Shown one piece after another: positions 2,677 to 20,689 of a stretch of 64,000 nt of DNA. Both the position numbers and the translations under genes were made by a program. This stretch comes from an uncultured Clostridia bacterium (GTDB lineage: Bacteria; Bacillota; Clostridia; Peptostreptococcales; Anaerovoracaceae): contig CAKQQT010000003.1 in NCBI GenBank assembly GCA_934271235.1, positions 97,400 through 161,399 of the forward strand. The letters run 5' to 3'. The notes below the pieces were generated by a model. That model made no database searches and had not been told where the DNA came from. It saw nothing but the letters and a program-made list of their open reading frames with translations. Numbering within the stretch: position 1 is the stretch's first letter; each line of letters begins with the position of its first letter.

Positions 2677-5600
2677 CGACATCTTTCCTCCATCTTGCTC
2701 TCGCTCTCCAGCGCTTCCCGACGGCTGCCGTTCCACAGATAGGACATGACGGTAACAAATTTCGCGTTGCCCGGCCGCTGCAGCTGGTAGATCGCCAGCG
2801 CGTCCAGCGTATCACAGTCTCCCCAGAGAACCTGCGAGTTGATGATAAAATCAAAACCAAATTCCGACATCAGGCGGAACATGTCCCGGATATTCCTGCT
2901 GTCCACGCCGGCGAACGCCTCGTCCAAGGAGATCAAACGCGGCGCGTCCTTGCTGCCACCCTCATATTTGGCGAAGACGGCCGAGAACAGCGGCACATAC
3001 ATGGCCATCGCCTTTTCGCCCCCGCTGAAGGTCCCGAAGACGCTGTTGGTCAGCTCGCGCTGCCGTTCCCCGGTCTTCTGCGTGAACAGCTGGAATTCAA
3101 ACCATTTGCGATAATCCAGCGTATCCTTCATCACCTGATAGAAGGATACCAGGCCGGCCTGCTCGCCGCTGCTTCTTCTTGCTTCCTCCACTTTGGAGCG
3201 AAAATGCGCGGACAGGCGGCGGCTTTCCTCTTCCGTCATCGAAAGATAATCTTTTTTGAGCAGCTGCACCAGTTCCCCGGTATCCAGCTGATCCTCCGCC
3301 TCCGCGGATCTGCTTCTCCATTTCAGGCTCAGCTTCAGCCCGCTGGACGTGTTCATGCTGCCCATCAGCTGATTCATATTGCTGACCCAGCTGCCGGCAG
3401 CGTTAATCTTGCCGCGGATCTTGCGGCTGACCGTATTGGATAAGATGTCCTCAAACAGCTCGCGGTCTTTTCCCGAGATCAGATCCTTTAATTCCGTGAT
3501 ATCCGCCTTCAGGCAGGCGATCAGCTGCGGGAACGGCATTTCATTGCCTTGGTACCGCGCCCGGATATCGTTGCGCTTGGCAGTCATAGCCGTTTCCGGC
3601 TGTCCCTCATCCTCCTCCGCGAAAAGGTCGGATTTCAGATTCGGCTGATATTCATTCAGGAAATCCCGCTGCTGGTAATAGACCTCATTGAGCCTTTGGT
3701 TCACGCTCTCCCAACTGAGTCCCTCCGCGTCATTTTTGAGATACTGCATGATCGCGCGGGCCTGCGTGCCAATCTCCTCCGGGATCTCCACATATGCCAG
3801 CTTCCGTTCTTTCTCACAGCATCTGGCCAGCCTTGTTTCGATCTTGTCCAGATCCGCGAGCTGACTCGCACAGGCTTCGATTTCCTGCTCTAAGATCTTG
3901 CATTCCTCCTGGCATCTCGTCATGCTTTTGGTATTTTCGGTCAGTTTCTTCGGAAAATCTTCCAGCCAGGCTGTGCAGGCGTCCAAGCGTTCTTTGATCG
4001 CCGCGTAGTCTGTCAGTTCCAGCTGGCTGCGCACCGAAGCAAGCTCCATCTGCTTTTTCAGACGATTGCGCTCCGCGTCGGCAAGTTCGTCCCGGACCGC
4101 CGCGATGTCTTCTTCGATGTCTTCCGCCTGCATCGCCAGACCGCGGATCTCCTGCACCGTCTTCAAATAGAGCTCGTGCGCGGATGTAAGCCGGACCAAC
4201 AATTTGTCGTATGCTTCCGCTGCTTCTTTCGCCTGCTTAAACACTGCGAAGGAAAGATCGAGATGCAGATTTTTTCCGGCTTCATAAGCCGCTTCCTGCT
4301 TCTCGCGGATCTGATTTTTGATCTGCTGCAGGTCGTCTTCCAGGTGATCCTTGTCCTTTTCCAAGCGACTGCAGTTATTCTCCGCATCCTGCACCTCCCG
4401 CCACGCGGCTTTGAGATCGCTATCCTGCGGGAATGCCCGGTACTCAGCCTCCAGCTGCACAAGACGCGCTTCGATCTGCTCGCAGAACGCTTGCAGCGTT
4501 TCCAGTTCCTGTTCCAGCCTTTCGATCTCGGCTTCACAGGCGCGGATCTTCGCAAGGCGCGCGTTTTCACGGGCTTTCGTGCCGAGGAACGCTGCCTTGT
4601 GCTGCCCGGTGATCGTACCCGACAGCACGCCGATCCGGTAGCTTCCGTCCGTCCTGACCGATGCCTGTCCATCTCCGTCATAAGCGATGCTGCCCAAAAT
4701 GCTCGTCAGCCTCTGATTGGAAAAAATATCGTTCACCTCATCGTTGAGCTGCAGGATATCGAGCAGGCTTTTGCCTGCCTGCGGACTTCCCGCGAACAGA
4801 TAGCGGTCCGCGCAGCCTTCCGCAAAGGTCATGACCCGCTCACGATACTGCTCTTCGATCACCAGCGCGTCCAGGATCCCCATCGCGAGCAGCGCCTCCT
4901 CGAGGCGGTCACAGGCGGCTTCCTCCAAGGTGTCGTCAAATTCGATCACTTTATAAAATTCCTGATACGGGATCCCTAGCGCCGTAAGTCTGGCTCTGTT
5001 TGCCAAAACCGCCTCACTGCGCTCCGGCTCTGGTTCTTTTTGATCCTCCCATTCTTTCAGTTCCCTGCGGACCGAAGTAAGCGCTTCTTCGGTTTCCGTA
5101 AGTAAGGCTGACTTTTCATGCTGCAGGCTCTGCAGGCCACTTCGCAGCGTCTGCTTCACATCCGCCGCGATCTGACGCGCCTGGCCGAAGTCCGCGTTTT
5201 CGTCGTAATCATCCGCAAAACGGCTGATCCTGCCTAAGACTGCCTGCGCAAGTTTCAACTCCGTGTTGCCCGCTTCCCAACGGTAGAGCGCTTCTTTCCA
5301 CTCACTTCCGACCCGGATCAGCAGATTTTCCGCTTCCGTTTGCTTGCGCTGCGCACGGTCCAGTTCGCGAACGACGCGATCGCGTTTTTCCGTAAGCGCG
5401 TCGTTCTCTTTTTTGAGCTGCTGTGTTTCCTCCAAGATCTGAAAGGTTTCTCCGATCCCCACCTTCGTCATGTGGAATTGTTTTTGATGCACTGTATAGT
5501 CGTATATCTCGTCAAGCCGGCCCAAAAGCTCATCTCGGAAGAAAGCATGCTCGTCGAAAGCCATATCGTCCGCTTCGTCTTCCATTTCTTCTAAGTATCG

Positions 5601-6761
5601 GCGGATCGTTTTTTCCCTGTCGTATTTTTCATTCTCGGTATCTTTACGCTTAGATTCCAGATCGCGCAGACGCTGCTGCTTCGTTTCCAGCATTTGCGTC
5701 TTTTCCAGCACCGTAGTGCCGAAGCTCTCGCTTTCTTTTTCCAGCTCGCTTTCCCGCTGTTTCAGCATCGCTGCGTCGCTTTTGCCCAGAGATTCCCGTT
5801 CTTTCTCCATGGCCTGCCGTGTGGCTTCCATTTCCTGCTGCGCGGTCTCGCACGCCGCGATCTGCTCCCTGCGGGACTGCAGGGTCTTTTCTTTCTGCGC
5901 CTTCTGCGTTTTGGTCTGCGCGAGCTTTTCCTGCGCTTCCTGACAGGCGGCCGCTTTCTTATACAGCATCAGCCGGTTATATTTATCGTAGGCCCGCTGG
6001 ATCTTTTCGGCGGCGGCGATGGCCGCTTCCTCGTCCTTAAGCTTGCGGCTCAGCTCGTCCATGTTCTCGATCGCCTCCGACATCGGCCGCAGATCGTCGT
6101 CCGAAAGGGGCTGCAGCGAATCGCTGAGGATCTCGTTGATCACAGATGGTTTAAAGTCCTTGGAAAGCTTCGGCGTCCGCAGCTGGATCAGAAGGTCGAT
6201 CAATTCCTTATATTCGTCCTTGCTCTCAAATCCAAAGACGTGGCTGTTCACATATTCCATGTAATCCGCCTGCTTATCGAACACGCGCCCGCCCTTTTCG
6301 ATACGGTTTTCCAATTCTTTCTTCGACAGCGTGATCTTCTCCCCAATGGATTTATATAAGAAAAAGTCTTTGCCGATCCGCCTGCCGTCCGAGATCGCGA
6401 AATACCACTTGTCCAGCGGTTTTCCCTTTCGCGCGCGGATGCCCATGCCGATCGTCAAATACTCTTCACTGTCTCCGCGCCGAAATTCCAGATAAAGATA
6501 GCCGGTCCGCTCTTCCCGATCATCGTCATCCTCCAAAAGGTAGCTGTTCATCTTACGGTCGCGGCTTCCGAACGGATCCAGCCGTTCCGGGCTCATGTTG
6601 CCGTCCAAAAGCAGCGGTACGACGCTCTGCATAGTAACGGATTTGCCGGAGCCGTTCGAGCCGCGGAGCAGCATCCTGCCCTTGGCGAACGTAAATTCCT
6701 GTTCATCGTAGTACCAAAAATTCACCAGTCCGATCTTATTTGCCTGCCATCTGCCGCTCAT
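2673..6761 (-). CDS. jetC: Wadjet type II SMC-like ATPase JetC
   Basis: JetC is the MukB/SMC-like motor that, with JetA (kleisin) and JetB (KITE), extrudes DNA loops to sense plasmid topology. The 1362 residues show Walker A GSNGSGKS at 34-41, long heptad-rich coiled-coil arms (roughly 230-500 and 750-1000), a hinge-like globular segment between them, an ABC signature (FSGGEKAMAM) and a Walker B (LISLDEAFAGVD) near the C-terminus. The start is fixed by a 4-base ATGA overlap with the jetB stop, and the stop overlaps jetD in the same way, so the four genes are translationally coupled. Length and motifs match the TIGR02680-like family as I remember it. No sign of decay. Confidence 0.93.
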   Translation of the reverse strand: MSGRWQANKIGLVNFWYYDEQEFTFAKGRMLLRGSNGSGKSVTMQSVVPLLLDGNMSPERLDPFGSRDRKMNSYLLEDDDDREERTGYLYLEFRRGDSEEYLTIGMGIRARKGKPLDKWYFAISDGRRIGKDFFLYKSIGEKITLSKKELENRIEKGGRVFDKQADYMEYVNSHVFGFESKDEYKELIDLLIQLRTPKLSKDFKPSVINEILSDSLQPLSDDDLRPMSEAIENMDELSRKLKDEEAAIAAAEKIQRAYDKYNRLMLYKKAAACQEAQEKLAQTKTQKAQKEKTLQSRREQIAACETAQQEMEATRQAMEKERESLGKSDAAMLKQRESELEKESESFGTTVLEKTQMLETKQQRLRDLESKRKDTENEKYDREKTIRRYLEEMEDEADDMAFDEHAFFRDELLGRLDEIYDYTVHQKQFHMTKVGIGETFQILEETQQLKKENDALTEKRDRVVRELDRAQRKQTEAENLLIRVGSEWKEALYRWEAGNTELKLAQAVLGRISRFADDYDENADFGQARQIAADVKQTLRSGLQSLQHEKSALLTETEEALTSVRRELKEWEDQKEPEPERSEAVLANRARLTALGIPYQEFYKVIEFDDTLEEAACDRLEEALLAMGILDALVIEEQYRERVMTFAEGCADRYLFAGSPQAGKSLLDILQLNDEVNDIFSNQRLTSILGSIAYDGDGQASVRTDGSYRIGVLSGTITGQHKAAFLGTKARENARLAKIRACEAEIERLEQELETLQAFCEQIEARLVQLEAEYRAFPQDSDLKAAWREVQDAENNCSRLEKDKDHLEDDLQQIKNQIREKQEAAYEAGKNLHLDLSFAVFKQAKEAAEAYDKLLVRLTSAHELYLKTVQEIRGLAMQAEDIEEDIAAVRDELADAERNRLKKQMELASVRSQLELTDYAAIKERLDACTAWLEDFPKKLTENTKSMTRCQEECKILEQEIEACASQLADLDKIETRLARCCEKERKLAYVEIPEEIGTQARAIMQYLKNDAEGLSWESVNQRLNEVYYQQRDFLNEYQPNLKSDLFAEEDEGQPETAMTAKRNDIRARYQGNEMPFPQLIACLKADITELKDLISGKDRELFEDILSNTVSRKIRGKINAAGSWVSNMNQLMGSMNTSSGLKLSLKWRSRSAEAEDQLDTGELVQLLKKDYLSMTEEESRRLSAHFRSKVEEARRSSGEQAGLVSFYQVMKDTLDYRKWFEFQLFTQKTGERQRELTNSVFGTFSGGEKAMAMYVPLFSAVFAKYEGGSKDAPRLISLDEAFAGVDSRNIRDMFRLMSEFGFDFIINSQVLWGDCDTLDALAIYQLQRPGNAKFVTVMSYLWNGSRREALESESKMEERCR

Positions 6762-7915
6762 GCCTTTTCCTCACTTTCCTCTTCCGTTTTATCCGTAAAG
6801 TCTTCCGGATAACGGCCTCGGAGCTTGCCCGCTGCCGGATAGATCCGCACCTGCCGCGTCTCCTTTAATTCTCTGCTGAACATCCAGCGTTCCATTTCCT
6901 CCGCGATCACGCGTACAAACTCGCCGTCCGGCATTTCTCGGTACTTCTTCGCGAAGCCGTGCGCGAAGTCCCGTTTGACCTTCCCGATAACCTGTCCAAA
7001 TTCCAGATCACTGACCACGCAGGTCTCGTCGTTTTCTGTCTTCCAAGCTCCGGCGCGGATCTTTTTCTGCATCTCGCCGAGCACTAAAAGCACGATATCG
7101 GCCAGCACGTTTGCGGATGGGAACTCCTTCCCGATGCGGCAGTCCTCGCCCAGCATCAGGTAAGCGCTCCCTTTGTGGATATGGACCCGGCAGTCGAAGA
7201 TCTTCTCGAGATCATCGCTGAGTCTGCGTCCGTAATACTTCAGATATTCGAAATCTTCCGGCGCGCCGTCCCCGCGGTACATACCGGGCGCGAAGAGCAG
7301 GCGTTTGTACACGCGCTGCCGTCTGGCGATGCCCTTGTCCTCGTCGATGTCAAACCAGTCGCTCTGCGCGAAGTCCTCCGGCTTGTCGTATCCCCGAATA
7401 TCCCGCGAAAACGTCCGCATAAAATAGCGCGACGCTCCGGTGCTTTCATAAAGGACCTCGCCAGTCACGTTGTCCATAAAGGCTTCATCGCTGCCGTCGG
7501 TGATCTTGAGCATATCCTGCGTGATCGCGTAGCGCAGCACCTTGATCAGTCTCCGCCGGTTGGTGTATACCGTCCAGTCCACCGCTTCGCCCGGCATGTG
7601 GACCGCCGTGTATTCCGTCAGCTGCGAAAGGATGAACTGCTCTCCGGCGTCCTTGTCTTCCAGGAACATCAGCAGCACGCACAAAAAGGCATACTCTTCC
7701 CGCGAGGTGAATTCCTGTACGCCCATGAAAGTCTCCGGAAGGACCGGTATTTTTTCCAGCTTGACCAAAAGCGCGTTTTCGATCAGCTGGCAGCCCATTT
7801 TTTCGGATGTGAATTTGCGGATCTCAGGTGCCGCGTCCCGGATCTTATAGTATAATTCTTTGTTTTCCGCCTTGAGCACCCAGCGGTTTCCAAGCAGGAT
7901 CTCCAGTTCTCTCAT
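6758..7915 (-). CDS. jetB: Wadjet type II KITE subunit JetB (DUF2398-like)
   Basis: Second gene of the operon, 385 residues. JetB proteins are winged-helix KITE partners that bind the kleisin JetA and help load the JetC SMC dimer. There are no catalytic motifs to check, so the call rests on gene order, on ATGA overlaps at both ends (with jetA upstream and jetC downstream), on length, and on a composition typical of the DUF2398/TIGR02678 group (alternating helical and wing segments, acidic C-terminus ending in a run of glutamates). Nothing looks broken. Confidence 0.88.
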   Translation of the reverse strand: MRELEILLGNRWVLKAENKELYYKIRDAAPEIRKFTSEKMGCQLIENALLVKLEKIPVLPETFMGVQEFTSREEYAFLCVLLMFLEDKDAGEQFILSQLTEYTAVHMPGEAVDWTVYTNRRRLIKVLRYAITQDMLKITDGSDEAFMDNVTGEVLYESTGASRYFMRTFSRDIRGYDKPEDFAQSDWFDIDEDKGIARRQRVYKRLLFAPGMYRGDGAPEDFEYLKYYGRRLSDDLEKIFDCRVHIHKGSAYLMLGEDCRIGKEFPSANVLADIVLLVLGEMQKKIRAGAWKTENDETCVVSDLEFGQVIGKVKRDFAHGFAKKYREMPDGEFVRVIAEEMERWMFSRELKETRQVRIYPAAGKLRGRYPEDFTDKTEEESEEKA

Positions 7916-9462
7916 TCCACCGCCTCCTCAAATACCAGCGCGAAGCGCGGCATCGTCAGATTGCCGTCGCACGCGCGCAGTACGCACTTCTGCCCGCTGC
8001 CGCTCTCATCCAGATGAAACAGCCTACCATCATCGGTCCTTGCCGTTTTCGCGGTATCCTCCAGCGCATTTGAAAGCCAGGTCAGGAGGATCTCCCGGAT
8101 CTCCGGCTCGACCACAGGCAGCGCGCCAAAGTCGATCCTGCCGTCCTGTTCCAAGGCTCTGAGTTTTTCCATGTGTGCCTGCTGCACTTGCATCAACGCC
8201 TCGCGCGCGGCCTCTTTTTCGCGGCTCATATCGCGGATCGCGCTGCGGCCCGCGCGTTCCTTATACGTACGGACTCGCGGCTTCAGCGTGATCTCAAACG
8301 GCGCTTCGTCATATACGCTGCCGTTCATGGTGTCTGTTTCCCGTATCATATCCGCCTTCATATGCGCTGTCGCTTCCAGCCCGAACACCATCGCCGACAG
8401 CTTATGCGCCTGCTTGATATCTTCACATCTGAGGAAAATCTCCGCGACTCGGCGATATTCCTCACGCCGGTTCGCTCCCAACGCGTTCTTTTCGGAGATC
8501 TGCGCCGCGTATCGGGTGATCTTGCGGATGATGTCGTTGGTCTTGTCGAACAGCTTCGCAGCCTCGTTATCCTCACTGCCGTTCCCGCAGAACCACTCAA
8601 AGATGCTCTGCCAGCGGTCGTAGATCTTCTGTTCGATCTCCTGCCGGGTGATTTCTTCCCCGATACGCGGGATCGCCAGTTCATAGTCGATCACCTTTTC
8701 CAAGATCGCCTGTTTTTGCTGCTCGGTGATCCTGCGCAGCTGTTCCTCGATCGCGCCTACATTTCGCTGCAGGTTCTTGATAAAATTGCGCAGATATTCC
8801 ACCAGCTGATCCTTAAAGGTAAGGAACGCCCGCGTCTGCATCATCTGCTCGGCTTTGACGCTGCTCAGGCTGCTCATATAGTCCTTGTAGTTCTGATTCA
8901 GACGCACAAAGTCATTGCTGAGATCGTTCCACCACGCATAGACTTTGCTGCCTTCCTGCTCGTCCTCCGCCATCTGTGCGAACACGGCAAGATAGCTCCG
9001 GATACGTTCCAGCAGACTCGGCTCCAGCGACGCGCCCTCGATGTGCAGATTTTCCAGTCGCTGCACCAGACGCTCTACCTCGACGCCGACATCCGTCATG
9101 CTGTACTCAAACTTTTTGTTCTTGAATTCTTCAATGGAGTTCACATGGCGTGTGTCCTGATAAGCCTCTAAATTCTTCCATTCTGTCAGCATATCCAGGT
9201 CCTGCCGGCACTGCTCGATCCGATAGTCCGCGAACAGTCCTGTCTCCTGCATGGCTTCATAAACATCTTCCTGATACAATTTGTATTTTAATTTATCGTA
9301 ATGCATTAAAAAAATGCGCATAATGGCGCGATATCGGCTCACATTATCCGCATTCAAATATTTTGCCTCAGTCAAAGGCCGCATCGTCTTGTCCGTGATC
9401 TGCATGAATCTTGCTTCCTCGTTTACTCTCTTTGGTTTTTCTTCTCGTTTTCCGGTCAGCAT
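7912..9462 (-). CDS. jetA: Wadjet type II kleisin subunit JetA (DUF2397-like)
   Basis: First gene of the Wadjet operon, up to 516 residues, largely helical with several coiled stretches, as expected for the MukF-like kleisin that bridges the two JetC heads. The start is uncertain. The upstream ATG (9462) has only a weak AGAG upstream. An ATG at 9405, where the protein would begin MQITDK, follows GAGGAAG and also fits the usual N-terminus of the family. The promoter at 9489-9518 precedes both. The stop overlaps jetB by four bases. Identity comes from operon position and size, plus resemblance to the DUF2397/TIGR02677 group. Confidence 0.88.
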   Translation of the reverse strand: MLTGKREEKPKRVNEEARFMQITDKTMRPLTEAKYLNADNVSRYRAIMRIFLMHYDKLKYKLYQEDVYEAMQETGLFADYRIEQCRQDLDMLTEWKNLEAYQDTRHVNSIEEFKNKKFEYSMTDVGVEVERLVQRLENLHIEGASLEPSLLERIRSYLAVFAQMAEDEQEGSKVYAWWNDLSNDFVRLNQNYKDYMSSLSSVKAEQMMQTRAFLTFKDQLVEYLRNFIKNLQRNVGAIEEQLRRITEQQKQAILEKVIDYELAIPRIGEEITRQEIEQKIYDRWQSIFEWFCGNGSEDNEAAKLFDKTNDIIRKITRYAAQISEKNALGANRREEYRRVAEIFLRCEDIKQAHKLSAMVFGLEATAHMKADMIRETDTMNGSVYDEAPFEITLKPRVRTYKERAGRSAIRDMSREKEAAREALMQVQQAHMEKLRALEQDGRIDFGALPVVEPEIREILLTWLSNALEDTAKTARTDDGRLFHLDESGSGQKCVLRACDGNLTMPRFALVFEEAVE

Positions 9463-13010: not shown

Positions 13011-14009
13011 CTAATGCATCATAACATTTATATAATTTTTAAGTCCTGTCTCTGATGAAAAGTCGTACTTTGCGTTCATTGCGCGATAATATGTTTCAAT
13101 GTTTTCCAGTGGAATGATCTCATTGGACGGTATACTGTCATCATATCCTTTTCGAGCTTCTTTCCAAGGTTCCTCTTTATGTGTAATACGTTCCAACGCT
13201 CTTCCTCCGTATTCACCAAAAGTGTTTATGACTAAATCTAAAACTTTACGCTCATTTCGATTCAGTTCATCGTCAGCCCCGTCAAAGATTGCAAAGCGCG
13301 CGTCTTCAATCGGATTATACTTAAAATCCTTAAACATATCATATACTTCCGGATATACCGGTCCATGCACCCACGCTTGGCAATTTTCGAGGAAAATAGG
13401 TTCCCCGTTAAGTGCATAAGATACCCCCTGTGTGAAATAGAGCAGCTTTTGGAGCATAAGCGGTGTGACTTCTCTCAACTTTTTAAAAATATACGAAATG
13501 ACACTTAACATTTTTTTTGAAACAGAAAAGAGATTCTCAAGCCGCAGAACTGCATCCATTGCTTTATTATACGCTGCTGCTGCTATCTTTTCTTTATTTT
13601 CATTTAGTTTTTTCCCCATGAATGCCGGTGACGACAATGCAGTTCTCAAAATATCCGAGTACTCTCTCGACGGTATCTGGCCCAAAAGATATCTGGTAAT
13701 CGTTACTTCACCGAATCCGAGAGCCAACGACAAAGGCGCCTTGCCAATCTTGTAAATCTTCATGATCTTTTCGATATCATCAATCGAAACAATGTTTTCA
13801 TATGTTCTATATTGCTCATCCATTTCATGGATATTTTTGTCGATTAACCCCGGAATACTCATCTCTTCGCCGCATTCTTTGCATATGGCAACCGTAATGC
13901 TGAACGTGTACTCCTTCTCTTTTATCATTTTCGTGATATTTCGTTTTTGTAAAGTATACTCTGTCTGTTTTCTGCATGTCGTGCAAAAGTCACGTCTTAC
14001 TTCTGTCAT
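13011..14009 (-). CDS. MqsA-type zinc finger + HTH + Panacea antitoxin
   Basis: I start at the ATG at 14009, five bases after GGAGG; the longer frame to 14081 would overlap the upstream gene without need. The 332 residues show a YgiT/MqsA-like zinc finger near the N-terminus (CTTC and CKEC pairs), an HTH in the middle (LALGFGEVTITRYLLG), and a C-terminal Panacea (DUF4065/SocA-like) domain with LMLQKLLYFTQG and HGPVYPEVY. Panacea domains act as antitoxin modules for many unrelated toxins, and MqsA-type fingers pair with MqsR. Here both are in one protein 22 nt downstream of an MqsR-like toxin gene, so the pair is best read as an operon with an autoregulating antitoxin. Confidence 0.85.
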   Translation of the reverse strand: MTEVRRDFCTTCRKQTEYTLQKRNITKMIKEKEYTFSITVAICKECGEEMSIPGLIDKNIHEMDEQYRTYENIVSIDDIEKIMKIYKIGKAPLSLALGFGEVTITRYLLGQIPSREYSDILRTALSSPAFMGKKLNENKEKIAAAAYNKAMDAVLRLENLFSVSKKMLSVISYIFKKLREVTPLMLQKLLYFTQGVSYALNGEPIFLENCQAWVHGPVYPEVYDMFKDFKYNPIEDARFAIFDGADDELNRNERKVLDLVINTFGEYGGRALERITHKEEPWKEARKGYDDSIPSNEIIPLENIETYYRAMNAKYDFSSETGLKNYINVMMH

Positions 14010-14031
14010 ATTTTCCTCCATCACCACTGCT

Positions 14032-14418
14032 CTATTTAAAATAGTATTGCATCGGATATTTTTGTTCATGAAGCGATACAACTATTACATAGCAGTTATC
14101 CAACTTATTAAATTTTATGTATAAAGAAACAGTCTTGCTGTTGTCGCCGATTCTCTCCAAAAGTTCAACATTCTTGCCAAAAACATATAATCGTTCATGT
14201 TCATAGCCTACATGCTCATTTTGTAATATCTCAGAAAAATCATTCACAGCTAAACTGATCAAAATTTCTTTTGCCTTTTCCTCATCAATTACGTAGTCCA
14301 TAAACAGATTTAAATTATCCCGTCTGTGTGAATTGCGTTCTATTCGGTATTGATTATTTCGAATCGCACTTTTTACTTCATTCAGATAAATCTCAATCTC
14401 CTCTTTTGTTATGTTCAA
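14032..14418 (-). CDS. MqsR-like toxin, 128 aa
   Basis: First gene of a toxin-antitoxin operon. MqsR toxins are RelE-fold mRNA interferases. The conserved C-terminal pattern of the family is visible: a short helix (DFSEILQNEH), then strands ending with SLYIKFNKL and VIVVSLHEQKYP. The start is a TTG at 14418; AGGGGG lies five to six bases upstream, and no in-frame ATG fits. A weak start codon would keep toxin output low relative to the antitoxin, which begins at a strong site. The family match is by pattern, so I call it MqsR-like rather than MqsR. Confidence 0.8.
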   Translation of the reverse strand: MNITKEEIEIYLNEVKSAIRNNQYRIERNSHRRDNLNLFMDYVIDEEKAKEILISLAVNDFSEILQNEHVGYEHERLYVFGKNVELLERIGDNSKTVSLYIKFNKLDNCYVIVVSLHEQKYPMQYYFK

Positions 14419-14441
14419 AGCATCCCCCTATACGCCCATCA

Positions 14442-14502
14442 ATATGATCGTTTTTTTGATTTTTTCTATCATTTATTATAGCATATGATCGAATTTTGTC
14501 AA
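14442..14502 (-). promoter_or_regulatory. Promoter and repeated operator of the mqsR-like/panA operon
   Basis: TTGACA (14502-14497), a 16-bp spacer and TATAAT (14480-14475) on the minus strand form a near-perfect promoter. The nonamer CGATCATAT occurs twice in the same orientation, once inside the spacer (14491-14483) and once downstream of the start site (14450-14442). This placement suits a repressor site, most simply for the HTH of the antitoxin. Confidence 0.7.
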
Positions 14503-14596
14503 TATCCCATCATTTAATTTTCACAGAATCCCTGTCAAAGTATAAGACTTCGTTAAGAAAGTCGGCTTCGCCGATTAGATTTTTGGCGGTAGACTT

Positions 14597-14633
14597 TTTT
14601 ATTATATAAAAAGCCCGCGTCTTGCGGCGCGGG
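14597..14633 (-). terminator. Rho-independent terminator
   Basis: CCCGCG (14614-14619) pairs with CGCGGG (14628-14633) around an 8-nt loop; on the minus strand the stem is followed by CTTTTTAT and further U-rich sequence. It ends transcription of the zinc-ribbon gene at 14708-15034 and shields the toxin-antitoxin operon. Confidence 0.8.
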
Positions 14634-14707
14634 AACTGCACAAAAATATCAGCTATATTTCCTCTTTCATGATGATCTTCATCGTGTCCTCTTGAAAAGC
14701 CATTCAT

Positions 14708-15034
14708 TTAAACCGGTTCACTACAGCTTGCGCTTTGCTGTTCGGTAAATCTCTGCTTATTGTTTTCCCTTTTCCATTGCGTCAGATTTAATTTCCGATT
14801 GCCCTCTTCATCAAAATTTCCTGATTGAAATTCCTCCATAAAGTTTTTTGCACTATATGCCGATCCGCTGATACACTCTGCGTGATTTGTTACTTTTCCG
14901 CAAAATATGCAATACAGCATTTTTAAATGTCCGCATTCTCTAAGGTATCCGAGTTTACGCGGTACGGGGATTCCGCATTTCCCGCATTGCGTACAATAGA
15001 ATTCATGAATGTCTGCAGCATTCTGATAACTCAT
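14708..15034 (-). CDS. Small zinc-ribbon-like protein, 108 aa
   Basis: Cysteine pairs CTQC and CIFC, about 30 residues apart, sit in the N-terminal half and would form a zinc ribbon or knuckle. The rest is polar and ends in a disordered tail. Similar short proteins (YCTQCGK ... YCIFCGK) are frequent in clostridial mobile regions, with no function known to me. It stands alone: a terminator follows about 75 nt downstream, and the relic peptide module lies upstream. Confidence 0.65.
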   Translation of the reverse strand: MSYQNAADIHEFYCTQCGKCGIPVPRKLGYLRECGHLKMLYCIFCGKVTNHAECISGSAYSAKNFMEEFQSGNFDEEGNRKLNLTQWKRENNKQRFTEQQSASCSEPV

Positions 15035-15058
15035 AAGGCAGCTCCCTTTGTCCTAAAT

Positions 15059-15173
15059 TCAACCGTTTATGCTTTAGGCTTTATGTCTTGCCGCTCTTGG
15101 TTGTCGCCGGAGCGGCTTTTTTAATACTTGAAATCGTGATCCTTAAACGTTTTAGCGTTATCTTAGTCTTCAT
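15059..15173. repeat. Direct repeat, copy A of the type I TA module (relic)
   Basis: About 115 bp nearly identical to 16620-16735. It contains the terminator hairpin of the small RNA (CCGCTC ... GAGCGG then T6 on plus) and, on minus, the peptide frame. It lacks the conserved small-RNA promoter and the LexA box seen in the two intact modules, so it is a decayed copy. Confidence 0.85.
15081..15173 (-). pseudogene. Relic of the ITIT/RITI peptide gene
   Basis: A 30-codon frame starting MKTKITLKRLRITISSIKK, clearly a copy of the peptide at 16628-16735. The frame is open, but its ribosome binding site has decayed (GGGCGG only), the C-terminus stops five codons earlier, and no LexA box or promoter precedes it. 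It lies 50 nt downstream of the zinc-ribbon membrane gene, whose transcript could in principle still carry it. Confidence 0.6.
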
Positions 15174-15223
15174 TGCCGCCCAATTGCTGAATCGCTCGCA
15201 GGGCTGCCGCATTCTTCACAGCG

Positions 15224-16027
15224 TTACTCTATGTACACCTGCATCTCATACAACAGTTCCACTGTCTCCTTATCGATTTCCTCAAAGTCTTCCGCAAAAG
15301 AGTTCAGTGATCCGTTCGGACTTAACGCCATATTGGTAAACTTCAAATAGGCTTCATATAATTCTGTGATCTTCTGATAGCCTGCCTGATATTTTTGAGG
15401 CGGGTTCTGTAAATCTTTCATGCAAGTATTTACATGGCTTTGATTTTCCGCGATCTCTTGCAGCTGGGCAGCAAAGTCCTCATCTTCAAATAAGCGGTCA
15501 AGTGCATCGTTAAAATCAGAAACGAAAACGCCGTTTGATTTTGTATAGCGGTTGGTCTCTTGATCGGACTTTTTCCAAATCGCATTGTGCCATGTTTTTT
15601 GGATCAGGTTGCAGGCTGTTTCCGCTTTTATGCACCCATCCTGCATGAAATAAGTCGCCAGATAGAGGTTCACGGCATAGTCGCTTTTTTGTTTCTGCAC
15701 AAAGCCAAAGCCCACCGCCGCGATCAAAAGCACGGAAAAGATCACAAGCGTAACGTTCTTCTTTCGCTGCGTTTTCTCACTTTTACTCTTATTTGCCTTG
15801 TCATTTCCGGCGCCGTCCGGTGTTTCTTCTGCCGCAGGTCCCTGCATCTCTGCCGCATCCATCGGATACCCGCAGTTCGGACAGGCCGACATATCTTGCT
15901 CGGTTTCGTTTCCGCATTCCGGGCAGATCTTCTTTGTTTCTTGAGAAAATACGCAGCCGCAGTGCACGCAGCTTCTCGCTTTATCGGATATTTCTTTGCC
16001 GCAGTTCGGACATGGGATCAGTGCCAT
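15224..16027 (-). CDS. Zinc-ribbon membrane-anchored protein, 267 aa
   Basis: A strong AGGAGG precedes the ATG. Residues 1-60 hold two zinc ribbons (CPNC/CVHC and CPEC/CPNC pairs). A low-complexity charged linker follows, then one membrane span around residues 92-112 (VTLVIFSVLLIAAVGFGF), and an extracytoplasmic helical domain of about 150 residues. The layout is common in Firmicutes: cytosolic ribbons with a surface-exposed domain of unknown role. Orientation follows the positive-inside rule, with the Lys/Arg-rich linker before the span. Confidence 0.75.
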   Translation of the reverse strand: MALIPCPNCGKEISDKARSCVHCGCVFSQETKKICPECGNETEQDMSACPNCGYPMDAAEMQGPAAEETPDGAGNDKANKSKSEKTQRKKNVTLVIFSVLLIAAVGFGFVQKQKSDYAVNLYLATYFMQDGCIKAETACNLIQKTWHNAIWKKSDQETNRYTKSNGVFVSDFNDALDRLFEDEDFAAQLQEIAENQSHVNTCMKDLQNPPQKYQAGYQKITELYEAYLKFTNMALSPNGSLNSFAEDFEEIDKETVELLYEMQVYIE

Positions 16028-16102
16028 AGAAAACCTCCTGTCGCGTGTTTCTTTCGTAAATACCTGTCATGATTTTAATTCTATCTCTCTTTTACCGGAC
16101 TT

Positions 16103-16468
16103 TCAGCAAGCGATCACCTGTGCGCCAAACGGCATCAGCGACAACTGCGCCAGCTTAAAAAACTGTTTCCCGAACGGGATCCCGATGATCGTAATGCACC
16201 ACAGGCAGCCGATGATCAGATAAAAGATCGCCATTTCCAAACCGAAGCTTGCGATCCAAATGATATTGATCAAAAAGGAAAACGTCCCGCTGCCGTAAAC
16301 AATTTCTTTTCCAAACGGCCATGCCGCCAGTGGTGCAAACTTAAAGCACTGCAGGCCGACCGGTATCCCGATGATCGTCAGACACCAGATGCACCCGGAC
16401 AGCAGCCAGAGGATCCCGCCAAGCAATCCGCCGAAAAGAAACCATAGAATATTGCCAAATGTGTTCAT
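16103..16468 (-). CDS. YccF (DUF307) family membrane protein
   Basis: 121 residues when started at the ATG at 16468, which follows GGGAGG by four bases; the frame up to 16495 is less likely. The protein contains two copies of the YccF unit with the motif WCLTIIGIPVG / WCITIIGIPFG and hydrophobic spans on either side. YccF proteins are small inner-membrane proteins of unknown role. Its upstream region abuts the promoter of the small RNA at 16600. Confidence 0.9.
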   Translation of the reverse strand: MNTFGNILWFLFGGLLGGILWLLSGCIWCLTIIGIPVGLQCFKFAPLAAWPFGKEIVYGSGTFSFLINIIWIASFGLEMAIFYLIIGCLWCITIIGIPFGKQFFKLAQLSLMPFGAQVIAC

Positions 16469-16564
16469 CTTTCCTCCCGTATATACATCTTTCATTTAAT
16501 CCGTATGATCCTGTACCAAGCAAAGCGTCTGCTGCAATTTTTGCAAAATTCTCAATTGAAAGCC

Positions 16565-16593
16565 TTGCATCTTTCGCTTGCTTGTGTTAACAT
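16565..16593 (+). promoter_or_regulatory. Promoter of antisense RNA B
   Basis: TTGCAT (16565-16570) and TAACAT (16588-16593) with a 17-bp spacer. The surrounding 66 bp (16539-16604) are almost identical to 18279-18344 in front of the second small RNA, although the sequences downstream diverge. That is strong evidence that this block is functional. Confidence 0.65.
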
Positions 16594-16599
16594 TAGGTC

Positions 16600-16684
16600 A
16601 AGAGAACGAGCCTTACGGCTCAACCGTTTAGTTTTTAGGCTTTATAGCCTTGCCGCTCTTGGTTGGTGCTGGAGCGGCTTTTTT
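16600..16684 (+). ncRNA. Small RNA B, candidate type I antitoxin
   Basis: Predicted transcript of about 85 nt with three stem-loops: GAGCC/GGCTC around TTAC (16608-16621), AGGCT/AGCCT around TTAT (16637-16650), and a terminator with stem GCCGCTC/GAGCGGC (16652-16678) followed by six T. It is fully complementary to the last 57 bases of the peptide gene on the other strand and to the mRNA beyond its stop. This is the arrangement of 3'-overlapping antisense antitoxins such as those of Bacillus txpA and bsrG. Ends are predicted, not mapped. Confidence 0.65.
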
Positions 16685-16735
16685 AATACTTGAAATCGTG
16701 ATCCGTAAACGTTTTAGCGTTATCGTAATCTTCAT
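16620..16735. repeat. Direct repeat, copy B of the type I TA module
   Basis: Partner of the relic at 15059-15173, about 1.56 kb apart in the same orientation. Identity is high through the terminator hairpin and the peptide frame, and stops sharply at the peptide's ATG. Confidence 0.85.
16628..16735 (-). CDS. Small basic peptide, candidate type I toxin B
   Basis: A 35-residue peptide beginning MKITITLKRLRITISSIKK and ending in a Lys/Pro-rich tail. The ribosome binding site is excellent (GGGAGG at 16749-16744, spacing 8). A paralogous peptide with the same ITIT-x4-RITI pattern occurs at 18376-18468. The 5' leader is about 76 nt from a promoter covered by a LexA box. Alternating hydrophobic and polar residues suggest an amphipathic strand rather than the single membrane helix of most type I toxins. 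No match to a family I know; toxicity is inferred from the gene arrangement only. Confidence 0.7.
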   Translation of the reverse strand: MKITITLKRLRITISSIKKAAPAPTKSGKAIKPKN

Positions 16736-16817
16736 TCTCGCAGCCTCCCTTCTCCAAATCCATACGGACCTTTTGAACAGTGGCCAAGCCGCTCGACTCC
16801 ATTCTCCTGACACTTTT

Positions 16818-16852
16818 AGTTTATCATATTCTCGTGCAAAGAACGAGCGTTC
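16818..16852 (-). promoter_or_regulatory. LexA-box promoter of peptide B
   Basis: The palindrome GAAC-GAGC-GTTC (16841-16852), extended to AAAGAAC...GTTCTTT, matches the Firmicutes SOS box. On the minus strand TCGTTC inside the box can act as the -35, with TAAACT (16823-16818) 17 bp downstream as the -10, so LexA binding would block polymerase. The same layout occurs at 18548-18582. The box begins only a few bases after the stop of the RNase III gene. Confidence 0.75.
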
Positions 16853-16855
16853 TTT

Positions 16856-17935
16856 TTATTCGTTTTGGTCATCAATAAGAAATTTCAGCATCTTTAATGC
16901 TGCCTGCTTCTTCGCGTCCTTTTTTGATGATGAATTAGAAGTAAAAAATTGCTTATATTCTTTATTCTTGCATGTACAGCTCCAAATTGGATTGCCATCT
17001 TCGTCATGTGTCTCTTCGAAAGCATAGGTAGGAATGGAAAAATATCCTCTGCGTGCAAGAATTTCAAGTTGGTTTATCGCAAAGTCTTTGCTTGGTTCGC
17101 CAATTTCATCTTTCATCGTGAACTCTTGAATATATTCGTTTTCTTCCAGATATTCGTACGCTAATTTGCAAACGTTCATTCGTGCTTCACTTTTTGATTC
17201 CCCGAATCCGCGAAAAATCGGAAGCTCATCCAATAATTTTAATTCGCAATGATATTTTATGCGGTCGTAATCGTAAGGCGAAGATATATTCTGAGAGATT
17301 CCATTAAATTCTGTATACCACGTTAACTGGTATGGTTGTTCTTTAAACCAAAACCAAGGCACTACATGGTTGTTTTCCATTTCCCAATCTTGAATCAAAC
17401 GAACATAATTATCATCTTCGTCATTTTCAATAAAATCTTCTATTACCAGCATGGCCTCGACTACCGACTGAATTATCGCAAAATTCCATCCGCTGTCTAT
17501 TGTCACAGCGCCAACAATTGCCTCAAATAAATCCTCTTTTACGGACTTCTCATTTGAAACATGATTTTTAATATCACTTTTTCCCATGAGTAAAAGCTCT
17601 GCAAATCCCAGTTCTTCAATTCGTTGTGCCAGATTTTTCTTTTGCACGATTCGACTTTTCAGTTTTGTGAGGTCACCCTCTGCATATTCACAGAAAAACT
17701 CCCTTGGCCCTTTCGTCGAATTGTTGCTTTCCACTTCTCCAAATTTCTCTATCAGTATTTTTATTACTGCGAAATCAAGTGCTTTATCTCCGATAAATTC
17801 CAGCACCTCATTATTTTCTCCGCCATTCTCTTCTGTGTAAGAACGACGTGTAAATGCTTGGTTCAGCAGATCAATGTTCTTAAAAGTATAGCCGATCTGA
17901 GCTTGAACCATTTTAAATCCTAATTCTCTTTCCAT
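16856..17935 (-). CDS. Second-type RNase III with two dsRNA-binding regions
   Basis: I start at the ATG at 17935 (protein begins MERELGFK), which leaves 359 residues; an in-frame start 39 bases upstream is possible. The RNase III domain has the signature NNEVLEFIGDKALDF with E43 and D50, and KEDLFEAIVGA with D135 and E138, so all four catalytic positions are kept. Two dsRNA-binding-like regions follow (about 165-250 and 275-350, the last rich in Lys). Housekeeping RNase III is about 230 residues with one such domain, so this is a longer, divergent, accessory enzyme. It processes double-stranded RNA in the cytosol. Its position between two sense/antisense modules suggests those duplexes as substrates. 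Confidence 0.85.
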   Translation of the reverse strand: MERELGFKMVQAQIGYTFKNIDLLNQAFTRRSYTEENGGENNEVLEFIGDKALDFAVIKILIEKFGEVESNNSTKGPREFFCEYAEGDLTKLKSRIVQKKNLAQRIEELGFAELLLMGKSDIKNHVSNEKSVKEDLFEAIVGAVTIDSGWNFAIIQSVVEAMLVIEDFIENDEDDNYVRLIQDWEMENNHVVPWFWFKEQPYQLTWYTEFNGISQNISSPYDYDRIKYHCELKLLDELPIFRGFGESKSEARMNVCKLAYEYLEENEYIQEFTMKDEIGEPSKDFAINQLEILARRGYFSIPTYAFEETHDEDGNPIWSCTCKNKEYKQFFTSNSSSKKDAKKQAALKMLKFLIDDQNE

Positions 17936-18304
17936 AACAAAAAATCCTTTCAGTAAATAATTACCAAAAGGCATAATAAATAATTACAATCCGACAGATA
18001 GTATCTCTCGCATAACAGCACACAAAAAATATTGTCAGACCCGATAGATTAAATTTGATCCTTTGTTTTCTTTTGTTTACTCAAGTTCACTTGCATAAAC
18101 AGGAATAAACACCAAAATACAATGTCTGAAATTTAATTTATTATGCCTCCAAGCATTTGTATTATAGCACTAATATTTATTTTTGTAAACAAAAATAAAA
18201 TGTTCACACTTGGATTTGTTCATTCGAGCCCGAAGGTATCAAACTTCCGGAAATGGCTACTTTTCCTGTACTGCATGTTTTGCAAATTTCTCAATCGAAA
18301 ACCT
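17936..18304. other. Non-coding AT-rich region
   Basis: No credible gene in any frame. The right end contains the 66-bp block shared with the promoter region of small RNA B. The left part must hold the RNase III promoter, but no element is close to consensus. Confidence 0.5.
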
Positions 18305-18333
18305 TGCATCTTTCGCTTGCTTGTGTTAACATA
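18305..18333 (+). promoter_or_regulatory. Promoter of antisense RNA C
   Basis: TTGCAT (18305-18310), 17-bp spacer, TAACAT (18328-18333): the same elements and spacing as in front of small RNA B, inside a nearly identical 66-bp block (18279-18344). Confidence 0.65.
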
Positions 18334-18339
18334 AAGTCA

Positions 18340-18418
18340 AGAGGAAACCGTTGAAAACGGCTAACCTATTGGGATTAAAATAATCGCCTCAGATTGCAAG
18401 CCGGGCGATTATTTTTTT
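18340..18418 (+). ncRNA. Small RNA C, candidate type I antitoxin
   Basis: Predicted transcript of about 80 nt. It has a small hairpin CCGTT/AACGG (18349-18361) and a strong terminator with arms AATAATCGCC and GGCGATTATT (18380-18414) running into a T tract. The body is unlike small RNA B although the promoter is the same. It is complementary to the 3' half of the peptide frame on the other strand, so the RNA and its target have diverged together. Confidence 0.65.
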
Positions 18419-18468
18419 ATGTAAATGGTAATCCGCACTTTACCGAAGGTAATTGTGATTCGCACCAT
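18376..18468 (-). CDS. Small basic peptide, candidate type I toxin C
   Basis: Starts MVRITITFGKVRITIY and aligns with peptide B over the ITIT-x4-RITI core. GGAAGG (18481-18476) lies seven bases before the ATG, and the leader is about 73 nt, almost the same as for peptide B. As read here the frame runs through the terminator stem to a TAA at 18376 (30 residues). The exact end depends on the length of the A/T run at 18411-18420: one base more or less would end the peptide after about 16-19 residues. Transcribed from the LexA-box promoter at 18548-18582. Not a family I recognise. Confidence 0.65.
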
Positions 18469-18547
18469 ATTACCACCTTCCTTCCATCCAAAATCCCTTT
18501 TGCATTTCGGAAGGTTAACCGCTTTCGCTTGTCCTCTTGACCTCTCT

Positions 18548-18582
18548 ATTTTATCACAATCCCGCACAAAGAACAAGCGTTC
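18548..18582 (-). promoter_or_regulatory. LexA-box promoter of peptide C
   Basis: GAAC-AAGC-GTTC (18571-18582) within AAAGAAC...GTTCTTT. On minus, TTGTTC in the box serves as -35 and TAAAAT (18553-18548) as -10 with a 17-bp spacer. The box covers the -35, so repression by LexA and release on DNA damage is expected. It lies 13 bp past the stop of the decayed helicase gene. Confidence 0.75.
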
Positions 18583-18595
18583 TTTTCAGGTTTTC

Positions 18596-20628
18596 TCATA
18601 CTCTTCGCAGCGCCGCTTCCAGCCGTTCTTTCTCGCTGCTTCCGGTCGTGGCAAACCGCTCTAGAGGGATGTTGTATTTTTTTAGGATTTCGTTTTTCTT
18701 CGCATCTCGCTCCAACTGCCTTTCGTTTGCCGCATGGAATGCATAGCCGTCCACTTCTACCGCAAGGACCGGTTGGTAATCCAGCTTCGAAAAGATCAAA
18801 AAGTCGATATGCGTGTTTCGGTTTCCTGCGAACCTGCGCTCCTCATCTGTCAATTTGCTGTCGTCCGAGATCAAATGCTTCAGCGGGACATGGGAGGCAG
18901 CCGCATATTTTGCAAATTCCTCCTTAGTAAGAACCTCTTGTATGACGGCATGCATCAAGTTTTCACTGTCGTAATCGGAGCTGCGTCCGTACCTATTCAG
19001 CACGTTTTCCCGCGCCTGTTCATAACCTTGATACAAATAATCGAACACCGACCGGACCTCGCTGTCCACGATCTCGTAATTGTGATACTGAATATAGCCA
19101 ATCAAATCATGGATCGGTGACGTCTTATCGTTGTCATTGCCGTCCGTTACCACAATAAACTGCCGGATTGCCCGCGAAACCGCTACATTCAAGCGATTCG
19201 GATCCGAAGCAAAGTCACCGATCTCGTTATCGACTGTGCTGAAGATCATCGCTGTCCGCTCATGTCCCTGGAACTTATCCACAGTATCGGACTTGATGTT
19301 TTCCTGCTTTTGATCAAAGCGCTGCTTGAGAGCTTCCGCCTGCCTGCGATACGGCGTCACGATACCGAGATTTTCCCCTGCCGCCAGATGCAGCGACGGC
19401 AAGACCTCTTTTTCGATCACATCCATCTGCCGCTCATTGCGGTGATTTCTCGCGTGATTGCCGGGTGCCGTCCGATAGACCGCCAGCGGCCGCTCCCCCT
19501 CGCTTTTCGTTAGGACGATCAGCTGATCGTTGTAGAAGCGTTTGTTGCAGAACCCGATGATCTCCGGGTGACAGCGGTAATGCTCCCGCAGCAAAACGCG
19601 CGGCGCATCCGAGAAAATATCGCGTCCGCAGTTTCGTCGTTCTGCACCGGAGCGCTGCTCGTATAGTGCTGAGATTCTCGTTTCAGTTCGTCCAGTTCCG
19701 CGTTCAAGACCGCCATCCGGTTTTTTGCTTCCAGCATACGATCCAGTTCCGCTTCGGAAGCGGCCAGTTTTCGTTCCAAGTCGGTGAAGGATTCCTGTTC
19801 CATATTCCACCCTTGCACGTTTGGGATCTCCACCTGCTGGTTCATCAGAAAACGCTCGCGGTTTTCCCAATTTCCAAGCTGTGCCGCGATAAAGGAAAGC
19901 CCGTACTTTTGGAGTTTTTCATAGACATTTTCAGTTGCCGTATTGTTGTTCGAAACAACGGCAACCGTCTCCCCGTTCATGACCGCGTTGGCGAGAATAT
20001 TCAAGATCATCTGCGTCTTGCCGGTTCCCGGCGGCCCTTCGATCAAGCTGACCTTGCTTCGCATCGCGTTCTCGACCGCCGCCTTTTGGCTCAGGTTGAA
20101 GCCGAACGGATAGAGGATCGTTCGCGCATGGTTTCCCTGTACCGGCACCGGTCTCCGCTCCAGATAATCGTACAGCACGCTGGTGCCCGGAATGACCTTC
20201 ACTTTGTCATAATTTGCTTTCAGAATGTTTTTGTCTTCCACCTACAGCCCAATCTTTTCGGCCAGCTCGCAGAGGTATCGGAACCCATCCCGGCTGCGGC
20301 AAGCCGTTTGCTCGGTCACGCGTACCCGCCGGTGCTGCACGGTCCGATAACTGCCGTCGGTAAAAATGACGCGCGTATACTTGCCGAATTCCTGCACGCC
20401 GTACGCATCCAGCCGCAGATCGTCGTCCAGAAGCAAGGCTTTCCCATCAAGCAGCTTCGTTTCCACTCCTTTGAAGGCGGCAAAATTGGACGCGTTGTAC
20501 CGAAACGTACCGCCGTTTCGAAAAGTTACCAGCACAAACGGCCTGCCTTTTTCATATGTAAACTTTGCAACTTCCTCCGTCCGATCCTCCCCTTTGAGAA
20601 GGATCAGATGCGATGGGTATCTTTTCAT
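18596..20628 (-). pseudogene. Decayed SF1 helicase with C-terminal DUF2726-like nuclease region
   Basis: Three frames make up one broken gene. The first (20628-20242, starting MKRYPSHLI after AGGGGG) ends with an in-frame TAG after EKIGL; the same frame continues directly with VEDKNIL, the Walker A (EGPPGTGKTQ) and a coiled segment to 19519. A different frame then carries on from DAPRVLLREHYRCHPEI through late helicase motifs (VDKFQGHE, NVAVSRA) to a C-terminal domain with VEVDGYAFH at 18596. The DEAD-type Walker B region is missing between them, so there is an internal deletion plus a frameshift. It cannot make a working helicase. Confidence 0.85.
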
Positions 20629-20689
20629 AAAATTGCCCCCTGCTCCTTCTGCTCCGTTATCCGATGACCTGCACGCCAAATGACATCCA

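Follow-up and report, generated by a model that had tools for sequence, protein, structure and literature searches.

The stretch of DNA analysed here (64,000 nucleotides (nt) of an uncultured Clostridia bacterium of the Anaerovoracaceae, assembly GCA_934271235.1, contig CAKQQT010000003.1, positions 97,400 to 161,399; hereafter the window) carries a short element in which the gene for a basic peptide of 35 residues lies opposite a predicted antisense RNA, with a palindrome of the LexA/SOS type at its promoter. The element is present in three copies, A, B and C, and we concentrate on copy B, in which we see a probable toxin-antitoxin module of type I that responds to DNA damage. Its parts, including the peptide open reading frame (ORF), are as follows.

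16838 to 16855, strand-neutral: operator of the LexA/SOS type, AAAGAAC-N4-GTTCTTT, immediately following the stop codon of an RNase III-like gene
16818 to 16846, minus strand: peptide promoter, with its -35 TCGTTC (16841-16846) within the box, a 17-nt spacer and an extended -10 TGA-TAAACT (-10 at 16818-16823)
16744 to 16749, minus strand: Shine-Dalgarno sequence GGGAGG, 8 nt before the ATG and mostly paired in the predicted leader
16628 to 16735, minus strand: ORF of 108 nt for the 35-residue basic peptide MKITITLKRLRITISSIKKAAPAPTKSGKAIKPKN, net charge +10
16679 to 16735, minus strand: conserved 19-residue core MKITITLKRLRITISSIKK, of which two lysine codons only lie opposite the antisense RNA
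16565 to 16593, plus strand: antisense promoter TTGCAT-N17-TAACAT with an extended -10 (TG-T), conserved between copies B and C
about 16600 to 16684, plus strand: predicted 85-nt antisense RNA with three hairpins, its terminator stem GCCGCTC/GAGCGGC and U-tract opposite codons 18-19

The peptide transcript is predicted to start near 16811. A preliminary description of this DNA had proposed the box, the peptide promoter, the Shine-Dalgarno sequence and the 35-codon ORF on the minus strand, together with a promoter and an RNA on the plus strand, and all of these elements lie where it had placed them.

Copy C (18304-18585) repeats the plan of copy B, and the distance from the box to the peptide motif is 111 nt in both. 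The corresponding features of copy C, and the position of copy A, are given below.

18568 to 18585, strand-neutral: SOS-type operator of copy C, a match to the palindrome
18409 to 18468, minus strand: copy C peptide MVRITITFGKVRITIYIKK, 19 residues
18304 to 18332, plus strand: antisense promoter of copy C, assigned by its likeness to copy B
18339 to 18418, plus strand: predicted 80-nt antisense RNA of copy C (folded as 18338-18418), overlapping the last 10 nt of the ORF only
15059 to 15179, minus strand: copy A, with the peptide MKTKITLKRLRITISSIKKAAPATTKSGKT (15081-15173), 89% identical to copy B over 122 aligned columns

The comparison of B with C separates the parts of the module. Ungapped identity is 43/60 over the box, promoter and transcript start and 63/70 over the antisense promoter and start (16535-16604; 29 of the 30 bases from 16565 are the same), as against 22/70 for the leader and 22/80 for the antisense body, both close to random. 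The box itself has 17 of its 18 bases in common between two copies whose cores differ at 13 of 17 third codon positions. The box and both promoters are therefore conserved together in two diverged paralogues, and the sequence GTCARGAG lies near the start of all four predicted transcripts. Copy A retains the peptide and terminator region, with its ITIT replaced by TKIT; an exact GAAC-N4-GTTC box is absent, as is anything resembling the antisense promoter, and the copy has apparently decayed.

The codons of the core indicate that the peptide is a genuine gene product. Across the ITIT and RITI motifs, B and C differ at none of 16 first and second positions and at six of eight third positions (Fisher p 0.0002), and the third-position bias extends over the 17-codon core (p 0.0025). 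In a comparison over 13 codons the residue is kept in 8, versus 1/12 in each of the other two frames. As the core lies outside the predicted antisense RNA save for its two lysine codons, this conservation is best explained by the peptide: the core is under coding selection, as a small protein-coding gene should be. The residues after position 19, on the other hand, arise as a by-product of the terminator of the antisense RNA. Read in frame, this terminator gives the tail AAPAxTKSGKA, in which AAPA and KSGKA come from the two stems and, in copy B, the KK codons from the U-tract (an A-run on the peptide strand). The relatives P0055-P0057 have the tail in another frame (KKPLLL), and those of the C type have several unlike tails that again resemble terminator arms when their back-translated codons, and not DNA, are read. 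Because the frame differs in the former and the tails of the latter fall into unlike types, the tail is not a conserved product, and the function probably resides in the first 16 to 19 residues. The reading MDLEKGG... (P0060, P0063) was considered as a second gene; from the protein sequences only, it is read instead as the other frame of the shifted-tail variants.

The core follows the pattern [RK]-[IV]-T-I-T-phi-x-x-phi-R-I-T-I, in which hydrophobic and polar residues alternate on either side of a variable two-residue turn (KR in 30, KY in 6, GR in 5, GK in 4 and others in the rest of 55 strict cores). Its two-strand amphipathicity exceeds that of composition shuffles with p 0.007 for B and 0.0004 for C, values that are optimistic because the strand split was chosen after the pattern had been seen. 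The helical moment of the B and C cores is no higher than in shuffles (p 0.60 and 0.74). The highest 19-residue Kyte-Doolittle mean is 0.49 in the copy B peptide and 0.58 among the three copies, none of whose peptides contains a hydrophobic alpha-helical transmembrane segment. Based on this pattern, the core is most likely an amphipathic two-stranded beta-hairpin.

Peptides with this core form a family. A first protein search returned 25 proteins from 25 candidates at E up to 10, with 24 relatives at E up to 1.5e-5; a profile search gave 65 of 139 candidates at E up to 10 (55 at E up to 1e-3), and one started from copy C gave 15 of 336 (9 at E up to 1e-3). The collected set comprises 77 distinct proteins at E up to 10, weak matches included. 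The core could be aligned by a loose rule in 71 of them, and the strict motif [RK][IV]TIT[LFIMV]xx[ILVWF][RK]IT[IV] fits 55, with 24 distinct cores; many of the 69-residue relatives are near-identical. Short-tailed members like copy C are under-counted, since the shortest collected protein has 29 residues. A source name is attached to only three of the 77, each a 'hypothetical protein' (P0049, from a Clostridia metagenome-assembled genome; P0069, from a Caudoviricetes record; P0065, from JGI, a weak match at E 7), probably because short genes escape annotation. In 14 of the 77 (P0025, P0041, P0042, P0046-P0054, P0058 and P0064) an insert KAVxSxES...LLREPxHKEFPS directly follows the core; it is 35 residues long in P0049, which is found on 235 contigs, and is possibly a repeat insertion.

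Family scans covered copy B and relatives, copy C (19 residues) being too short and left out. There was no match in NCBIfam or PHROGs for copy B and five relatives, none in PADLOC for copy B and the relatives scanned, none in a profile search of PDB sequences, and no relevant match in Pfam, where one of 26 members gave a weak, unrelated viral match. Phage and plasmid DNA and protein searches returned nothing convincing. Some viral scans gave no matches; in others, of 56 pattern matches none was confirmed as a relative, and 22 further matches, none with an exact box up to 200 nt upstream, were judged from their frames to be chance. No prior description of the peptide family appeared among the papers listed for the open-licence PubMed Central literature. 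The view in the preliminary description that the peptide has no membrane helix and matches none of the type I toxins familiar to its author agrees with these results.

The palindrome AAAGAAC-N4-GTTCTTT has two matches in the window, at copies B and C only, compared with a mean of 0.00 in 100 shuffles, and the box-plus-motif pattern likewise has two matches in the window and none in 100 shuffles. The shorter GAAC-N4-GTTC is weak evidence when taken alone, as three are found where 0.75 are expected and 3 of 100 shuffles reach three. GAAC-N4-GTTC is the Bacillus subtilis box and one of the motifs with which Clostridioides difficile has been searched (PMC4234289; this and the papers cited below are represented by the portions of their text available to us). 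A LexA-type operator at the promoter of the putative toxin, as in TisB/IstR-1, is thus present as far as sequence can tell. The box occurs in two paralogues and may be extended to one close relative of copy C, P0066, whose ORF reads through the copy C promoter. In the box stretch of P0066 the only residue change is R to H, which a one-base difference within the degenerate centre explains. Because 16 of 192 possible codon sets retain the exact box, we regard P0066 as support and not as proof.

On the other strand, a candidate antisense gene with its own putative promoter, complementary to the peptide mRNA, can be recognised from sequence, from fold and from B/C conservation. Folded as 16600-16685, the copy B RNA reaches -31.3 kcal/mol (z -2.83; 2/300 shuffles as stable), and its third hairpin is followed by six T. 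The copy C RNA gives z -2.75 (3/300), so that both fold more stably than shuffles though their bodies are not alike. The predicted RNA covers 57 of the 108 nt of the copy B ORF, and its 85 nt, three hairpins and coverage of half the peptide gene agree with what had first been described. Rfam gave nothing at the gathering score; at a loose threshold two weak matches far below their cut-offs appeared, one of them over the antisense RNA (RF02883, 20.4 bits versus 40), and both were rejected. The consensus scan reported other sites in copy B, namely a promoter-like sequence at 16482-16509 and a terminator-like hairpin at 16831-16847 on the plus strand, and a terminator-like hairpin at 16622-16607 on the minus strand. 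The last of these could be the end of the copy B peptide mRNA, which would in that case overlap with nearly the whole antisense RNA.

Taken together, this anatomy suggests how the module may work. LexA bound at 16838-16855 would cover the -35 of the peptide promoter, and its cleavage would allow transcription of a leader of about 76 nt and the short ORF. The cationic product, with its core MKITITLKRLRITISSIKK, would most likely fold as a beta-hairpin and damage the membrane of the cell that makes it. The convergent RNA, about 85 nt long and made constitutively, would be complementary throughout to the 3' half of the ORF, and to the 3' untranslated region (UTR) if the mRNA extends that far. It would most likely act as RatA does on txpA, directing leaky mRNA into decay by RNase III. 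We favour action through the 3' overlap as the most likely mechanism because pairing of the RNA with the leader falls within the range of shuffles. On balance, we therefore interpret copy B as probably a DNA damage-triggered type I module, with a layout like that of TxpA/RatA or Fst and a LexA logic like that of TisB.

Several points weigh against this interpretation. Both promoters are weak by consensus: the consensus scan detected neither the peptide nor the antisense promoter, nor the antisense terminator, in copies B and C, and the promoter calls rest on B/C conservation. The -35 that had been described as lying in a perfect SOS box does lie inside the palindrome, but TCGTTC is a poor consensus match. 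The box together with the ITIT/RITI motif, in a somewhat relaxed form and with 95-125 nt allowed between them, had a single match among 84,980 species genomes, at the end of a 7.2-kb contig of a gammaproteobacterial metagenome-assembled genome; it is unlike the module and was judged chance, so that the box is perhaps variable or absent in other members. Perhaps the species set does not include the carriers, or their box or spacing is different. The expectation that pattern and box would recur in other genomes was therefore not borne out in this collection, but relatives of the peptide itself are numerous in the protein database. The antisense RNA stops short of the ribosome site, and in copy C it reaches only those last 10 nt of the ORF. 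The copy B leader is no more structured than shuffles (z -0.35), its Shine-Dalgarno sequence being mostly paired and its start codon open, whereas that of copy C is structured (z -2.19, 7/300), with its Shine-Dalgarno sequence and start codon mostly paired. Trans-pairing of the antisense RNA with the leader was considered and dropped, since shuffles equalled or surpassed the cognate pairs in 75, 269, 168 and 82 of 300 cases; non-cognate pairs gave 269/300 and, for the C RNA with the B leader, 14/300, which we treat as chance. Finally, the peptide is too little hydrophobic for a classical membrane type I toxin, and its proposed beta-hairpin is read from the sequence pattern only.

The module resembles known systems in part. 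TxpA, of the Bacillus subtilis skin element, is a membrane-type toxin. Genes that converge with a 3' overlap, as in TxpA/RatA or Fst, are also what the DNA of copy B predicts. The Gram-positive type I systems described by 2014 all overlap at their 3' ends (PMC4147584), and the majority of type I toxins are membrane peptides of helical structure, RalR and SymE being cytosolic exceptions (PMC8309996); the present module would share the first property and not the second. TxpA/RatA has the features predicted for copy B, namely convergent mRNA and RNA, 3' overlap, an RNA without an ORF and RNase III decay, RatA acting mainly through RNase III decay of txpA mRNA (PMC4147584, PMC3531473). TxpA is longer, at 59 residues (PMC4147584), and the RatA overlap spares the coding region, which the RNA predicted for copy B enters. 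The available portions of PMC4147584 and PMC3531473 do not mention a LexA box for txpA. Fst, of the RNA I-RNA II system of pAD1, is likewise a short peptide, and one whose toxicity is established (PMC4147584), but it is a helical membrane peptide (PMC8309996), unlike that of copy B. The overlap in that system leaves the coding region free, and direct repeats provide RNA II with further pairing, while it also prevents ribosome binding; no such pairing rises above shuffles in copies B and C. No homology to TxpA or Fst was found through NCBIfam, PHROGs and Pfam, with no direct alignment to either made.

The preliminary description had likened the logic to tisB/istR, and this holds for the operator but not for the layout. 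TisB/IstR-1 of Escherichia coli combines a LexA-repressed 29-residue toxin with a constitutive RNA (PMC8309996), much as predicted here. However, IstR-1 is divergent and pairs with a standby site in the 5' UTR (PMC4147584), whereas the RNA predicted here is convergent, its overlap lies at the 3' end and cognate pairing with the leader stays within the shuffle range. TisB is also a membrane helix, which the copy B peptide is not, and the type of LexA box differs. A partial Gram-positive precedent for control by damage, by analogy, may be seen in YonT/SR6 of the Bacillus subtilis prophage SP-beta, a type I toxin reported to be induced by mitomycin C, whose RNA overlaps at the 3' end (PMC3531473); unlike copy B, YonT is a 58-residue toxin that is polycistronic and prophage-borne (PMC5848175). 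A review of Clostridia (PMC6563280) uses, in its available portions, the term LexA 0 times and SOS 3 times, the SOS passage concerning Escherichia coli systems; some of the C. difficile toxins it lists have 34-35 residues, a likeness in length only.

The three copies lie between Wadjet genes (JetA2-D2 models, 1288-9462, minus strand) and Dnd genes (DndB, C and D were tested). Copy A follows a zinc-ribbon gene. Copy B comes directly after the gene for a 372-residue RNase III homologue with a double-stranded RNA-binding domain (16856-17974, minus strand), an attractive possible participant in the module, and copy C after a helicase-like gene with a DUF2726 domain (18596-20667, minus strand), which appears to be broken, its AAA parts lying in different frames. 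A more ambitious reading, which we offer tentatively, is that these peptides form a first beta-hairpin family of type I toxins: cationic, two-stranded, under direct LexA control in a Gram-positive bacterium, and scattered between defence genes so that DNA damage by phage or after failed defence kills or stalls the cell. If true, such a peptide would differ both from the helical membrane toxins and from cytosolic RalR and SymE. A peptide family of new shape would be added to the type I toxins, the Gram-positive 3'-overlap design would be linked to direct SOS control, and such modules would be located among defence genes of the Wadjet and Dnd types.

The strongest of the alternatives is that the peptide is SOS-induced without being a toxin of this kind, acting as a regulator or as an antimicrobial that is released, in which case the antisense RNA would do no more than adjust leaky expression. 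Cationic amphipathic cores such as this one occur in antimicrobial peptides, SOS-controlled bacteriocins and division inhibitors exist, and both the core pattern and the LexA-type operator would fit. Yet the scanned neighbours (a YccF-domain protein, the zinc-ribbon protein and the RNase III homologue) are not export genes, and the antisense promoter is the best conserved DNA of the module between B and C; we thus consider this alternative unlikely. It is less probable still that the module is of type I with its palindrome bound by another repressor, phage-type or local. The box has A/T at positions outside GAAC where the Bacillus LexA consensus has C/G, and one C-type relative (P0069) is filed under Caudoviricetes, but GAAC-N4-GTTC is itself the Bacillus box and one motif used for Clostridia (PMC4234289). 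That the copies are a repeat element spreading between defence genes, or a recombination site, with peptide and RNA as passengers, would suit three copies in 3.5 kb, each after a gene of the same direction, and transcripts that start at both ends near GTCARGAG in inverted arrangement, but it merits very little weight given that the core is under coding selection, that the conserved blocks coincide with promoter elements and that, of three inverted pairs of at least 20 nt in 14000-20000, none flanks a copy.

Some smaller observations concern the surroundings and the C-type leader. A search for tandem repeats gave none. The RNase III homologue beside copy B scores below the NCBIfam ribonuclease III cut-off (130 versus 166 bits), and at 21012-43349 (minus strand) the Dnd set is followed by a DpdH-like ATPase and several helicases. 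The start of the C-type leader (18513-18541, minus strand) reads SRGQAKAVNL in P0062, P0066 and P0067 and SRGQAKAVGL in P0076; because it is read from different ORF starts, a conserved element of the DNA or RNA seems to be present. It contains CAAGCGAAAG, which is seen again, on the same strand, in the two antisense promoters. At 14550-14610 the plus strand has a terminator-like sequence that reads KSASPIRFLAVDFFII and resembles the tails of P0061 and P0071, but no peptide core adjoins it.
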